Assembly: GCF_023702065.1 (NCBI RefSeq)
Contig: NZ_QFDM01000001.1
Location: 947,681 to 1,011,680, forward strand
DNA length: 64,000 nt
Reading direction: 5' to 3'
Source: Methanoculleus oceani
GTDB taxonomy: Archaea; Halobacteriota; Methanomicrobia; Methanomicrobiales; Methanoculleaceae
The translations under genes were made by a program, and so were the position numbers. Shown one piece after another: positions 40,470-46,944 of the stretch. The stretch's first letter is position 1. Every line of letters starts with the position of its first letter. The notes beneath the pieces were generated by a model that saw only the letters and a program-made list of their open reading frames with translations, had not been told where the DNA came from and ran no database searches.

Positions 40470-42401
40470 TCAGTGCAGAAAATGGTAGACTTCGACGGCG
40501 GCGTTTGAGTAAACCTTATCCTCCGTAGACAATCTGCCTGTCATGTTCAGGACATTCTCTTCCGTGGGCCGGTAGGGCTTAAGGCTTTTGTCCGGATCAA
40601 TCTCCGCTTCATCCAGTAGCTCATCCGGCCCGAGGAGGAGCCCTCCATGCATGAACTGGTGATTCAGGAGAACGATATAGCCCGTCTTCTCCGAGATCCT
40701 CAGATCTTCCGGCATCATGCGAGCGGAATAGTAAGGCAGGTTCAGACTTTCAGATTCGTTGATCTTCTTTCTCCCGAAGAATCGCAACGTATAGTAGTCC
40801 GAGTACAGAGGGGATCCGCTGGGCACCGTCGTTAACACGCGATCGAACCCGGCTACCTCGTCCTGGTCGAAAGAGTACCGTTTGTAGCTTGGCTCATCCC
40901 TGACGAGCCCGAGAGAACCGATGCCGTACAGGAGGATCAGGGCAATGAGTACTACCCCGATCCACCTTGATGACTGCCTCACGGCGGACAGGTACCGGGT
41001 GAGAAGGTATATCCCGACACCCATAACGACGGCAAGAATCGGCAGAAACAGAATTGCGAACCGATCGATTCGGAGGATTGCCGCGAACTGGAAGATCACG
41101 GTAAGGATATTCGGAACGTTCAGGAGAACTGCTAACAGTCCTAAAAGGCCAAATACAGCCGAATATTTCGGCTGCTGCTTCCATATAAGATAAATCGCCC
41201 CGATCAATGCGAAGAACACGACGAACAGGCCGTCAATCTGGCTAACCAGGAAATTCCAGCCGTTGTACACCACGTCGGTGAAAACAACCTCCTGGTATAG
41301 CGATAACTCGGTACGCGGGAGCAGTTCCCTCACGAAGGAGTAGGCTACGAAAGTCCAGTAACAGGCAAACAGGGATATGGGGACCATCAGGAAGACCGGA
41401 TCCACGTGCTTCCTTTCCTGGATGGCCCATCCGAGGACGAAGAGGAGCCCGATCAGGATGATGATCATGGGCATGGAGATCTGGTGCGTCAACAGAATGA
41501 AGACGGCCATGATCACGGCGGGGATCTTTCTGGCGGCGGGCCTGACGATGGCATGCTCCGCGTCGGCCTTCGGGCCTGTCATGGTGTAGAGCAGGTACAG
41601 GAGGATGAGAAACCCGACATATGCCATGATCCTCGTCACCATGTACGTCCCGTAGAATATGACGTCGGCGTTCATTGCGTACGCAAGAACCGCCAGAAGG
41701 GCGATCTGTTCGTTACGGAATATGCTGTTGACCAGATAGTACAGGAACAGCACCGTTGAAGCGAAGATCAGGCCCGTGGTGACAAAGAGGGCTGTCTGGA
41801 TATCCATGCCCAGCATCTGCGAAGATTGAGCCACAAATATGTGGTATAGGGGGAAGTAGGTGTATGTTCCGACATCGGGCGGGATGACGTGCCCTGACAG
41901 ATACGTGACCGTGGCCATGTAACTGTGCGACAGGATATCCGTTGTCCCGAAGTACAGAGCCGGCCGCAGGGTGTAGCTGTAGATCGTGATTGCGAGCGTG
42001 AGCATGGTCTCAAGGAGCACCGTCACCGGGCGTAGCCGCCAGGACAGTATCTGGACGAAGATTGTCGTGTACAGGATGAGTGCCGGAAACAGGCCCAGTT
42101 CGAAATCGATGTCCGTTACGAGCAGGACCAGGACGGCAAGCGTGGAGTACAGCAGGAAGAATACCGGAGACAAGAGAAGGCTATACCGAAATACCGCCGC
42201 TTTCTCTGACAGGTCGGGATCCCTTTTCTTTATGAGAATGAATACGGCACACGCGATGATCGCAGGAACCGCTATGATTGAACCGTTGACCAGATAGCTC
42301 ATTCTGTCGATATAGACACAGAAGATGCAGCCGACGATGTAGAAAGAGAGCGTCAGGTACGGGAGGATGTTGGCCAGCCTCTCAAGCGATCGGATCTTCA
42401 T
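40470..42401 (-). CDS. Multi-pass membrane protein, probable GT-C glycosyltransferase
   Basis: 643-residue membrane protein with many helices over about 1-510 and a hydrophilic C-terminal tail. The overall plan resembles the DUF2206-like protein at 11552-13759. An early extracytoplasmic loop reads LYFGTTDILSHSYMATV, with acidic and His residues positioned as in GT-C enzymes, and TYFPLYHIF follows. The start at 42401 (MKIRSLERL) is chosen because the upstream extension is Arg/Ser-rich and lacks a promoter context. It likely transfers a sugar from a polyprenyl-phosphate donor on the outside, but this is inferred. It lies near the second flippase, as the other GT-C-like gene lies near the first. 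Confidence 0.75.
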   Translation of the reverse strand: MKIRSLERLANILPYLTLSFYIVGCIFCVYIDRMSYLVNGSIIAVPAIIACAVFILIKKRDPDLSEKAAVFRYSLLLSPVFFLLYSTLAVLVLLVTDIDFELGLFPALILYTTIFVQILSWRLRPVTVLLETMLTLAITIYSYTLRPALYFGTTDILSHSYMATVTYLSGHVIPPDVGTYTYFPLYHIFVAQSSQMLGMDIQTALFVTTGLIFASTVLFLYYLVNSIFRNEQIALLAVLAYAMNADVIFYGTYMVTRIMAYVGFLILLYLLYTMTGPKADAEHAIVRPAARKIPAVIMAVFILLTHQISMPMIIILIGLLFVLGWAIQERKHVDPVFLMVPISLFACYWTFVAYSFVRELLPRTELSLYQEVVFTDVVYNGWNFLVSQIDGLFVVFFALIGAIYLIWKQQPKYSAVFGLLGLLAVLLNVPNILTVIFQFAAILRIDRFAILFLPILAVVMGVGIYLLTRYLSAVRQSSRWIGVVLIALILLYGIGSLGLVRDEPSYKRYSFDQDEVAGFDRVLTTVPSGSPLYSDYYTLRFFGRKKINESESLNLPYYSARMMPEDLRISEKTGYIVLLNHQFMHGGLLLGPDELLDEAEIDPDKSLKPYRPTEENVLNMTGRLSTEDKVYSNAAVEVYHFLH

Positions 42402-42591
42402 TTTCAGACCGAACCGCACTTCAACGCTCAAACCTAATAAAGTTAAGTTTGCGAACCGTCGGCGCCCCGGCGAAAGGGTGCTCCAGAATATTCTGCGTGC
42501 GGTCTGAGTAAGTTCTGTATTGGCGGAAGGGGAGCAGCGGGTTATGCTGTCTCGCACACAGGGCCTGCCCCGTCCGGTGGCGCCTTTTCCT

Positions 42592-44514
42592 CTATACGTG
42601 GCGTATCGGTCCCTCTTCGTGGAAATTCCGTTCGGGCCCGATCAGGTTGTCGGTCATGGTGATCCCACTTCTGCCGTCCGTCTGCCAGACTGGTGCCTGC
42701 TGGGTGTAGTAGAACCAGTTGTGGTCGATGTACGCCCCGTCCCGGGGGACCCCGCGGATGGCTACCGGGTACGCACCCGTGGGCTGGGTGGCCTGGAATG
42801 TGTTGTGGTGGATCAGGATCGTGTCGCCTGCAATCGTGCCGGAGCCGTTCGGGTCGGGCTTGCCGTGCATGTCGAAGGCGTGCGGGGACGTTGCGATGGC
42901 GTGCGGGCCGCAGATGTTGTACCTTGCCTCATAGCCATCCCCGGCGACCCCGGTCCCGGCGATCGCGTGCCGGCAGTAGTCGAAGTAGTTCGCCTCGACC
43001 AGAGCTACGCCGCCGGCGGAGACCACGATACCGTATCCGAGACCGTCCATCTGGCAGTGGTGGATATAGTTGTGGTGAATGTAGCCGCCGGCCTTCATGT
43101 CGGAGCCTCCGGTGCCGACCATGGTGATCGCAGCGCCGTTCCAGCCCCAGATCTCGCAGTTGTCCACCTCAAAGTTCCGGTGGGTGCAGTAGATTCCGAT
43201 CTTCTTTTCATCGATCCAGTCGGTGTCCTTGTCCGGTCCCTCGATACGGAGGCCGGTGATCCTCACGTTCTCCCCCCCGACGATGAGTCCGGCCGGGTAG
43301 TTGGAGTCTGTCGATGCCAGGGAGATCCTTCCGCCCGGGGAGACCGGGAGTTCGCCCATGCCGGGGCCATCAGGAGCCGAGATATACGCTCCTCCCAACG
43401 CAACGGAGTCTGCGATTGCCTCCATCGGAGATGAGATCGTACCGGATTCAGCTTCTATCCAGGTGTGTCTCTCTCCGCTCTGCTCTTCCATGGCAGCATC
43501 CGGAAGATAATCCGTGTCGTCTGTGATGAGGATCCCGTCGAGTTTCGAGTTCTTCTCCCGCCAATGGATGGTCAGGGTGTGCTGACCGCTGGAGAGGCGG
43601 TGGACCCCTTCCCTGTTCCAGCGCCAATCAGAACCGGCTTCAAGGTCCCACCGCCGGGTTCCTTCTCCATCTACCGAGATCCAGAAAGAATCGCTCTCCT
43701 CATGGGATGCGGACGCAAGGCCCCAGACAACATAATCTCCGGCCTCCTCAACCTCGAACGAGTATATCGCCGATCCGATTGTATTCCTCTCCCCCCTGTT
43801 GCCGGCAAGGGTCACTCCTTCCGGTACGGTCACTCCTCCCGAAATATCCGTGAGGTCGATCCGGGCCATCTCATCGACGTAGATTACATCTCCGCTTTCC
43901 GCGCTCGAAAGGGCGGCAAGCAACTCGTCGGTGGTTGTAACGACATAGTCCACTCTCGAGTCCGTCGAAGTGAATATCTCGTCGTAGCCCTCCCCTCCGC
44001 TGATGGGGTTGCCGGTGGGATTCGATTCCGCACCGAACGTCTCCTCCTGATCGGGGGATGCCGGATCCGGAGAGCCTGCGAAGAAGGGGGGCAGGAAAAA
44101 TTCCAAAATACTCGTGTTGTTTTGCCCCAGGGATAGCAGCGTCTCGCGTATCGTCCTGTAAATATCGATGGCCGACGGCATCGCACGAAGATCTCCATCT
44201 TCGGCGCTCGCAGTCCAGATCCCGCCACCGAGGAGTTGAACTCCGTGGATATGTGGAATTCGGGAACCGCCTTCGCTGCTTTGATCGCTACAGATCGGGG
44301 AACTACCGGAATCGGCAGGGTTCCGCGATGGATCCGCCAGCTCAGGCTCGTCCCAGCCTCTGTTCTCGACCCGGGAGGGAAGATTGGTGCCGGTAGTTAT
44401 CGAGATGACCAGTGCTGCACACAGCAGGATCTGGACAACAGGAACGAAATCGCCGGATCTCACTTGTTGTGTTTGATTCCGTTGGTCCGCAATAAACCTT
44501 TTTACCGGCAGCAC
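42592..44514 (-). CDS. Exported beta-helix protein with inserted, apparently permuted carbohydrate-binding module, family B copy 2
   Basis: 640 residues. The N-terminus has a hydrophobic stretch, GDFVPVVQILLCAALVISI (about 21-39), that resembles a type-IV-pilin-like signal. Ser/Pro-rich and unassigned sequence follows to about 155. A beta-helix begins near 160 and shares long blocks with family B copy 1 (NVRITGLRIEGP, NCEIWGW, GGYIHHN, YYTQQAPVWQTDGRSG). Residues about 248-392 are an insertion absent from copy 1. They contain the two halves of a CBM6/35-like module in reversed order (AGDYVVWG ... HTLTIHWRE ... LDGILITDD, then TWIEAESGTI). A GTG start at 44514 is listed; GTG at 44463 is an alternative that would give a classic short pilin-type head. 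The target is probably a surface glycan. Confidence 0.82.
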   Translation of the reverse strand: MLPVKRFIADQRNQTQQVRSGDFVPVVQILLCAALVISITTGTNLPSRVENRGWDEPELADPSRNPADSGSSPICSDQSSEGGSRIPHIHGVQLLGGGIWTASAEDGDLRAMPSAIDIYRTIRETLLSLGQNNTSILEFFLPPFFAGSPDPASPDQEETFGAESNPTGNPISGGEGYDEIFTSTDSRVDYVVTTTDELLAALSSAESGDVIYVDEMARIDLTDISGGVTVPEGVTLAGNRGERNTIGSAIYSFEVEEAGDYVVWGLASASHEESDSFWISVDGEGTRRWDLEAGSDWRWNREGVHRLSSGQHTLTIHWREKNSKLDGILITDDTDYLPDAAMEEQSGERHTWIEAESGTISSPMEAIADSVALGGAYISAPDGPGMGELPVSPGGRISLASTDSNYPAGLIVGGENVRITGLRIEGPDKDTDWIDEKKIGIYCTHRNFEVDNCEIWGWNGAAITMVGTGGSDMKAGGYIHHNYIHHCQMDGLGYGIVVSAGGVALVEANYFDYCRHAIAGTGVAGDGYEARYNICGPHAIATSPHAFDMHGKPDPNGSGTIAGDTILIHHNTFQATQPTGAYPVAIRGVPRDGAYIDHNWFYYTQQAPVWQTDGRSGITMTDNLIGPERNFHEEGPIRHV

Positions 44515-44715: not shown

Positions 44716-46944
44716 TCAGACGTACTTGATCGGACCCGACTTTGAGAGAGTTCCGGAAGCCCCGATCAGGTTGTCGGTCATGGTGATCCCACTTCTGCCG
44801 TCCGTCTGCCAGACAGGTGCCTGCTGGGTGTAGTAGAACCAGTTGTGGTCGATGTATGCCCCGACGCGGGGAACGCCCCGGATAGCAATCGGGTACGCAC
44901 CCGAGGGGCTCGTGGCCAGGAACGTGTTGTGGTGGATCCTGACCTCGTCACCTGCAATCGTGGTTGAGCCGGACGCCTTGCCGTGCATATCGAAGGGATG
45001 CGGAGACGTTGCGAGGGCGTGCGGGCCGCAGATGTTGTACCTTGCCTCATAGCCATCCCCGGCAACCCCGTCTCCGGCGATCGAGTGCCGGTTGTAGTCG
45101 AAGTAGTTCGCTTCGATCAGGGCGACACCTCCGGCGGTTACCACGATACCGTATCCATAACCGTCCATCTGGCAGTGGTGGATATTGTTGTGGTGGATGT
45201 AGCCGCCGGCCTTCATGCCCGAACCTCCGGTGCCGGCCATGTTGATCCCGGCATCGCACCAGCCCCAGATCTCACAGTTGTCTATCTCACTGTTCCGCTG
45301 GGTGCAGTAGATTCCAATGGGTTTGTAACTCACCGAATTGGTGTTCTTTTCCGGTCCCTCGATACGGAGGCCGGTGATCCTCACATTCTGCCCGTCGACC
45401 CTGAACAGGACGGCCGTGGACGGTGGGCTGGACTGCTTGCTCTGGTAGATCCGCCCGCCCAGAGCACCGTTCTCGCCCCGGTTGCTCGCAAGGGTGACCC
45501 CTGCCGGAATCCGGGTGTTGTAAGTGCCGCTCATGTCGATGTTGGCGTTGCCTTCGACGTAGACGACATCCCCGGACCGTGCGCTCTGCAGGGCCGAGAG
45601 CAGTTCGCTCTTCGTGTCGACGATGAAGTCAGCACTGCTTCGGCTGACGATGTTCGTGTAGCCGTCGCCTCCGCCGATCGGGTTTCCGGTCGGGTTGGCA
45701 TCCGCTCCGTAGACATTGTTACCGGGAGTCGGTGCCGGGGTCTGGGTCGGCCTTGGAGTCGCCGTCGCAGTGGGTGTCGGCGTCACGGTGGGTGTCGGGG
45801 CCGGTGTGGTCGCCTTCACCGTCATGGTCTTCGTGAGAACGTTGTTGTCCTCATTCTCCTCTACCATCCGGTCGACGTCGTCCACCCATGCCTGGATGGT
45901 GTAAGTACCCGCAGCCGCATCCCAGGTCGCACCGGCCGAGCCGCCGTTCGCGGTCACCGTGACCGATGCTCCGGGGGCGATGGAAGTCCTGAAGTCGTCA
46001 GACCAGACTTTGGAGCCAAGGTTTCCGTCCGAGGTGAAGGCCACCCCGTGAATCGTGCCGGATGGCGTTGCAGCAGTGCCCTGGTTCTTGATCACTGCTT
46101 TCATGACGATCGTGTCGCCGGTTGCCGGGCTCGCCGGTTCCCAGGAGATGTCGGTCACCACGAGGTCCGGGTTCCCTGAAGGGGCCGGTGTGGAGGTCGG
46201 CGTCGCGGTGGGAGTCGGGGTCGGTGCAACGCTGGGGACCGTGATCTCCTTGCTCATGACGTTGTTCGTCTCGTCGCTCTCGGCGATCCGGTAAACATCG
46301 TCTACGTTGGCCTTTACGGTGTGAGTGCCTTCGACGGCCTTCCAGGTTGCACCGGCCGAGCCGCCGTTGGCGGTCACCGTAACCCATGCACCCGGGGCAA
46401 TCGATGCCGTGTGGGTGTCGGACCAGACACCGGGACCGGCGGCCCCGTCATCGAACGTAAAGAGGACGCCATGCTTCACGCCGGCAGGCGTGGGGCCGTC
46501 ACCCTGGTTCTTGATCACCGCTTTCATGACGATCGTGTCGCCGGTTGCCGGGCTCGCCGGTTCCCAGGAGATGTCGGTCACCACGAGGTCCGGGTTCCCG
46601 GAGGGAACCGGTGTGGAAGTCGGCGTCGGCGTCGGAGTTGCGGCAGGATTGATTACCTCAACTTCGATGGAACTGCTCAGGGCATAGTTCCCGGGTGCAA
46701 TGACTACGGTACCGTCTTCGACGGCCCTCATTGCGGTCTGGATAACTTCGCTGTCATCTGTTCCCGCTGTTCCGCTGCTGATCACCTGACCAGTGCTGTC
46801 TTCCGCAATGATCTCGGTATCGTCAGTGTACACAACGATGTCGTAGGTACCCTCTGATACCTCCTGACTTGGCGCAGCCTGTGCCGATGCAGCCATAGCA
46901 AACACCAGGCATAGTGCCAGCGCAAGGAATAGGGGTTTCTTCAT
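44716..46944 (-). CDS. Secreted beta-helix protein with two CARDB domains, family B copy 1
   Basis: 742 residues. A clear signal peptide (about 1-23, ending ASAQAAP) is followed by a short unassigned region, a Pro/Thr linker, CARDB domain 1 (about 118-235, starting NPDLVVTDISWEPASP), a linker, CARDB domain 2 (about 255-375), a Pro/Thr linker, and a beta-helix (about 410-742) opening with YGADANPTGNPIGGG. The CARDB domains resemble those of the dockerin protein at 7377-9992, although the beta-helices belong to different families, so the modules have been shuffled. The SD AGGAG lies about 8 nt before the ATG. The helix family resembles pectate-lyase-like folds; the enzymatic role is unproven. 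Confidence 0.87.
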   Translation of the reverse strand: MKKPLFLALALCLVFAMAASAQAAPSQEVSEGTYDIVVYTDDTEIIAEDSTGQVISSGTAGTDDSEVIQTAMRAVEDGTVVIAPGNYALSSSIEVEVINPAATPTPTPTSTPVPSGNPDLVVTDISWEPASPATGDTIVMKAVIKNQGDGPTPAGVKHGVLFTFDDGAAGPGVWSDTHTASIAPGAWVTVTANGGSAGATWKAVEGTHTVKANVDDVYRIAESDETNNVMSKEITVPSVAPTPTPTATPTSTPAPSGNPDLVVTDISWEPASPATGDTIVMKAVIKNQGTAATPSGTIHGVAFTSDGNLGSKVWSDDFRTSIAPGASVTVTANGGSAGATWDAAAGTYTIQAWVDDVDRMVEENEDNNVLTKTMTVKATTPAPTPTVTPTPTATATPRPTQTPAPTPGNNVYGADANPTGNPIGGGDGYTNIVSRSSADFIVDTKSELLSALQSARSGDVVYVEGNANIDMSGTYNTRIPAGVTLASNRGENGALGGRIYQSKQSSPPSTAVLFRVDGQNVRITGLRIEGPEKNTNSVSYKPIGIYCTQRNSEIDNCEIWGWCDAGINMAGTGGSGMKAGGYIHHNNIHHCQMDGYGYGIVVTAGGVALIEANYFDYNRHSIAGDGVAGDGYEARYNICGPHALATSPHPFDMHGKASGSTTIAGDEVRIHHNTFLATSPSGAYPIAIRGVPRVGAYIDHNWFYYTQQAPVWQTDGRSGITMTDNLIGASGTLSKSGPIKYV

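Follow-up and report, generated by a model that had tools for sequence, protein, structure and literature searches.

Circular permutation of carbohydrate-binding modules (CBMs) has been described before. According to its title, the paper of Montanier and colleagues (2010; J Biol Chem 285:31742), cited in PMC4725902, PMC4444583, PMC9107766 and PMC8206207, describes a circular permutation that links two calcium-dependent CBM families, and in PMC3511584 the starch-binding module RoCBM21, of family CBM21, is circularly permuted to change its binding. Here we compare with these cases a stretch of 64,000 nucleotides from the methanogenic archaeon Methanoculleus oceani (contig NZ_QFDM01000001.1, positions 947,681 to 1,011,680 of the forward strand; hereafter the window), in which one gene encodes a β-helix protein that is split by an insert. 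We propose that this insert is very probably a single circularly permuted module of the CBM35/GH115_C-like kind, which would fold as one β-sandwich and bind a glycan beside the β-helix.

The two families linked in the earlier case are reportedly CBM36 and CBM60, with a β-sandwich fold. Like the case announced in the title of that work, the insert would involve circular permutation of a CBM, but unlike the CBM36/CBM60 case it lies within a helix. The cut point also appears to differ from that of CBM60, and the Pfam CBM60 model gives no match to the insert in native order at a maximum E of 10 (although few matches with E above about 0.1 survive the HMMER filters). The protein P0041 has a canonical module in which a sub-threshold CBM60 match (26.0 bits against a cut-off of 28.2) begins at VRASSGSNDADSFYL, downstream of the YTFS strand that is the counterpart of the insert's start here. 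RoCBM21 is a permuted CBM, as the insert would be, but not a natural insert. The host protein in turn is predicted to have the β-helix fold of alginate lyases and mannuronan C5-epimerases (6kfn, 8ja4, 2pyh, 7o7a). Within the part of the open-licence PubMed Central literature consulted, neither a natural, circularly permuted module of the CBM6 or CBM35 type nor a CBM lodged in a β-helix was seen to be reported. A precedent for circular permutation of CBMs exists, in what is said to be the CBM36/CBM60 pair.

Order of the parts within the insert

Alignment with the adjacent insert-free paralog and with other insert-free relatives places the insert at residues 243-393 (151 residues; window 43336-43788, minus strand), between NRGE and GGRI. 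The initial annotation had described an extra block of about 145 residues, 248-392, in one of two gene copies that share the same β-helix. The alignment with the paralog agrees with the shared helix and the extra block, and positions 43339-43773 do translate to residues 248-392, but the aligned limits are those given above. The six sequence stretches from which a permuted module had been proposed lie in the order claimed, in the minus-strand open reading frame (ORF) 42592-44514.

A protein search with the insert region gave 14 matches, 12 of which were the host protein itself or insert-bearing β-helix relatives. P0014, a bacterial-type M56-peptidase protein, has three modules in a row, and the native insert aligns with it over 91% of the insert length, in an alignment that apparently spans a module junction, whereas a single canonical module is present in P0016. 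A second protein search, with P0014 as query, gave 40 proteins including P0014, and these together with P0016 (41 proteins, 79 full-length modules, none permuted) were used for a canonical profile of 139 positions. The window insert matches this profile at positions 43-139 and then at positions 1-34. Similarly, when the profile was compared with 22 insert proteins, 21 gave two matches, in which the module's back part precedes its front part; the remaining one, encoded by L026 of M. chikugoensis, matched with the back part only.

In native order, the best single match of the window insert scores 78.2 bits and covers positions 43-139, whereas the insert rotated to canonical order scores 112.2 bits over positions 1-139. 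Shuffling the moved part 200 times within the window sequence gave a maximum of 89.2 bits. When the swap was repeated on a set of 34 insert proteins (that of the window plus 33 others, with P0003 represented by P0001), every one gave a single full-length match, with a gain of 18.7-37.4 bits that in each case lay above all of its 20 shuffles. Judged by these scores, the swapped order is beyond chance, and since all 34 proteins match end to end after the swap, one complete module is present, once. This supports the assignment of both parts to one CBM35/GH115_C-like module family, with the profile covered once in swapped order, and so, through the suggested comparison of the insert as given and with its halves exchanged, supports the permutation proposed for a CBM6/35-like module. 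The contrary outcome that had been allowed for, that neither half belongs to a CBM, failed, both halves matching the profile built here rather than being called by Pfam. Because the pieces of one module are each present once, in the order back part, linker and front part, the insert is most likely a single permuted module, a reading that the sequence supports. In this order a linker of 14-18 residues stands between the natural ends, and the new ends lie between the stretches GGAYIS and IYSFEV, where the chain enters and leaves the β-helix.

Predicted fold, constraint and alternative readings

The structure prediction suggested in the initial annotation gave a divided answer. AlphaFold2 folds the back part as a CBM6/35-like β-sandwich, and the front part remains at low confidence, with a predicted local distance difference test score (pLDDT) of 33-53 in the insert model, whose overall mean is 59.7. 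For the helix, the predicted fold is similar to those of various β-helices, polysaccharide lyases and epimerases among them, and the fold list includes tailspikes. We envisage that the helix would act on, or bind, surface or environmental polysaccharide, which the nested module would hold near the helix groove.

Patterns of substitution and conservation were compared for the two parts. In nine pairs of relatives, the ratio of nonsynonymous to synonymous substitution rates (dN/dS) is 0.21-0.59 for the back part, 0.16-0.70 for the front part and 0.12-0.33 for the helix; values for the short linker are noisy and reach 1.34. Residues E354, A355, E356 and D326 are kept in all 21 permuted rows of the alignment and in 52-57 of the 60 canonical rows, and E354, E356 and D326 are candidates for a role in Ca2+ binding, which often accompanies glycan binding in modules of the CBM6/35 type. 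The residue and dN/dS pattern fits a module that is still constrained, with a partly changed surface.

Several observations weigh against a single intact module. The low confidence of the front part recurs in the longer AlphaFold2 model, where pLDDT is below 50 over residues 356-389, and the structure matches of the back part, to CBM6/35/36, mostly involve model residues 2-106, that is, the helix flank plus the back part. The dN/dS of the front part exceeds that of the helix in all nine pairs, and the arginine of the canonical WxR motif, present in 56 of 60 canonical rows, is kept in only 5 of 21 permuted rows. In L026 and in a second cluster, represented by P0077, the front part is missing and is thus dispensable there. 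Furthermore, the window insert does not reach the Pfam cut-offs of CBM_35 or GH115_C in native or swapped order, and the permuted inserts of four relatives, searched against Pfam in both orders, all remain below the cut-offs.

Some of these observations are those expected if the insert were what is left of a tandem pair, two modules that lost their outer halves and now pack apart or stay unfolded, the insert being a relic or a spacer. The low AlphaFold2 confidence of the front part, its faster evolution relative to the helix and the lineage without it would all agree with such an origin. We nevertheless consider it unlikely, given that the swapped parts make one full-length match in each of the 34 proteins, that dN/dS is below one in both parts, that every permuted row retains the EAE and LD residues and that the order is shared across five genera of two families. 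A strand-swapped assembly, in which the front part that complements a given back part comes from a different chain and the module forms only in an oligomer, is very unlikely: tailspikes, which appear in the helix fold list, are trimers, but the linker of 14-18 residues looks long enough, on the geometry we assume for such modules, to join the ends within one chain.

The CBM6/35 assignment in the initial annotation stands on the profiles made here and not on Pfam CBM calls in either order; for the window insert, Pfam returned no CBM and only GH115_C, below its cut-off. By comparison, P0076 and P0080, which carry canonical modules on the same helix family, pass both CBM_35 (PF16990; 35.0 and 34.2 against 28) and GH115_C (PF17829; 30.3 and 28.4 against 24.1) in whole-protein scores, whereas the permuted inserts tested fall below. 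CBM-type modules can thus escape annotation, as does this one, with its swapped, diverged parts below the Pfam cut-offs. A Pfam GH115_C search found the domain in none of 61 genomes, with a model that also misses the inserts themselves. Sequence searches of the PDB gave zero matches with the insert and nothing convincing with a 14-row canonical profile (best E 0.0013, partial).

Tandem arrays as a possible source of the swapped order

Canonical modules are found at the ends of other proteins of the helix family, with a pair before the helix in P0076 and P0123, one before it in P0116 and a pair after it in P0080. In P0076, the modules (residues 48-179 and 215-346) are nearly identical, stand in tandem before the same β-helix and are likely the product of a recent duplication. 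For P0076 and for the permuted P0008 alike, the longest contig given is 9,615 bases, a hint that they may be neighbours. Together with the three-module arrays of G096 and G097 and the bacterial M56-peptidase arrays such as that of P0014, these modules share the family and the strand motifs of the insert. They differ from it in having the ordinary order and lying outside the helix, whereas the insert has the swapped order and lies inside.

These arrangements suggest, as the most likely origin, that one period of a tandem canonical array entered a helix loop out of phase, by copying or recombination, the donor being an array of the kind seen at the ends of other β-helix family members. Such a capture suggests a simpler explanation of the order than does a need for loop insertion. 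An ordinary CBM6/35 module already has its two ends close together, so permutation is not needed for insertion in a helix loop, and the argument in the initial annotation that permutation suits such insertion is weak on this point.

In a tree of 81 modules, which has few columns and retains 47 of the 79 canonical modules from the bacterial search after redundancy filtering, the 21 permuted modules form one group (100/99). This group joins the modules of P0080, P0116 and P0123 (95/82), with the finer order not resolved. Unlike in the module tree, insert-bearing genes do not form one group in the β-helix tree (three label changes), where insert-bearing and insert-free paralogs of one lineage fall together (L008 and L059, both paralogs, with L019 and L022), even though the inserts of this lineage cluster with the remaining permuted modules. 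The conflict between the trees likely arose when, within one lineage, gene conversion between adjacent paralogs affected the helix part.

Linkers in the 21 permuted proteins span 14-18 residues, and those at tandem junctions span 17-21 residues in 26 of 29 filtered, mostly bacterial junctions (range 17-50; set from the P0014 search). A linker sequence signature of tandem origin was rejected, the D..Y.P tail being found also behind single and last modules.

Other results count against array capture. In the module tree, the permuted group does not take in the modules of P0076, G096 or G097. Linkers of 22-65 residues, longer than the 14-18 of the insert, occur in seven junctions of the G096, G097, P0076, P0080 and P0123 arrays, and because these belong to the class or to the helix family, the linker-length argument for a tandem origin is weak. 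In the window's own genome, searches with CBM_6 and for canonical modules detected no canonical module, the Pfam CBM_6 search being confined to that one genome (0 of 1). Weighing these points, we lean slightly towards the view that this is a natural CBM35-type permutant in a β-helix enzyme, with the product, the recipient and the type of donor all still present in one protein family. If so, canonical pairs, an insert-free paralog and the permuted, nested form stand side by side, which makes the route of duplication and capture testable. It would then document a way to circular permutation through capture from a tandem array, and place a CBM inside, rather than beside, its partner domain.

Distribution and genomic setting

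Of 61 near genomes, 13 carry the insert, free of stops, and in one of these 13 (G014, with gene L026) the front part is absent. By group, these are 12 of 35 genomes in the genus (the window's own included), one of two from other genera of the family and none of the 24 that represent other families of the order. Among the records with names are Methanoculleus sediminis S3Fa and Methanoculleus sp. Afa-1, and M. chikugoensis L21-II-0 for the form without the front part. L026 (1228-2565, plus strand) lacks the WIEAES front part in frame and retains a 109-residue insert. Over 232 genomes of the class, the canonical profile has matches in 23, and both parts occur in swapped order in 15, from five genera of two families, in answer to the proposal that the same order be sought in related archaea; G014 has the back part only. 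An assembly or annotation artefact, with the swapped order created by misjoining of a read or by a frameshift, has a negligible probability, since the stop-free insert recurs in these 13 near genomes, the one lacking the front part included, and in named isolates and metagenome proteins; insert-bearing relatives refute an assembly error.

A whole-protein alignment search, which scored only the 7992 candidates sharing most words, gave 1222 proteins, of which the best 120 were examined. Among these 120, 34 have the permuted insert, four have canonical modules, 18 have weak or partial matches and 64 have none. The insert follows the NRG site in all 34 permuted relatives, and the swapped order is found in every one of the 34 that keep both parts. 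One of the 18 weak or partial cases, P0077 (488 residues), has the back part only, as in M. chikugoensis.

In both G096 and G097, one ORF encodes three canonical modules; a permuted gene is present in G097 as well. An insert-free paralog in G097 (L059:7430-10090, minus strand) has two N-terminal repeats (PYKAHAIPGRVNFVDFD...) with weak profile matches of 12.8 and 7.1 bits, and may carry sugar-binding-type modules of its own. In six genomes of one genus, within the same taxonomic order, rows of repeated domains (loci L047-L052, L055 and L057) match the canonical profile weakly, and nearly always with the back part alone, starting at about position 40.

The features of the locus are collected in Table 1.

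Table 1. Insert-bearing gene and adjacent paralog, with positions in the window
Feature	Position	Strand	Basis
Host gene, 640-residue protein with right-handed β-helix split by the insert	42592..44514	-	ORF translation, Pfam Beta_helix
β-helix, N-terminal section, residues 160-242, ending ...VTLAGNRGE	43789..44037	-	Alignment with insert-free relatives, AlphaFold2 model
Insert, first in order: back part of module, residues 243-333, profile positions about 43-139	43516..43788	-	Canonical-profile match
18-residue linker from natural C-terminal end (LDGILITDD) to natural N-terminal end (WIEAES)	43462..43515	-	
Insert, second in order: front part of module, residues 352-393, profile positions 1 to about 34-36	43336..43461	-	Canonical-profile match
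β-helix, C-terminal section, residues 394-640, first residues GGRISL	42595..43335	-	Pfam, alignment, AlphaFold2 model, fold matches
Adjacent insert-free paralog: two CARDB stretches and the same β-helix	44716..46944	-	ORF translation, Pfam, alignment
Empty site in paralog, residues 488-499, reading NRGENGALGGRI where the neighbour holds the insert	45448..45483	-	Alignment

The Pfam Beta_helix match (PF13229) of the host lies above its cut-off (31.3 bits against 25.9), and the helix model and fold matches agree with it. The most hydrophobic 19-residue stretch of the protein begins at residue 23, and the protein is likely anchored in the membrane by this N-terminal hydrophobic segment and exposed outside. 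Genes near the host encode, by Pfam, a polysaccharide flippase-type protein (Polysacc_synt_3) and a family 2 glycosyltransferase. At window 40470-42557 (minus strand) there is a large, apparently membrane protein of 695 residues for which Pfam gave no match up to E 0.01. By eye, a homolog of this protein directly follows the insert-bearing gene in L061 (6483-8438), and another stands one gene further on from the insert-bearing gene in L062 (20-1990).
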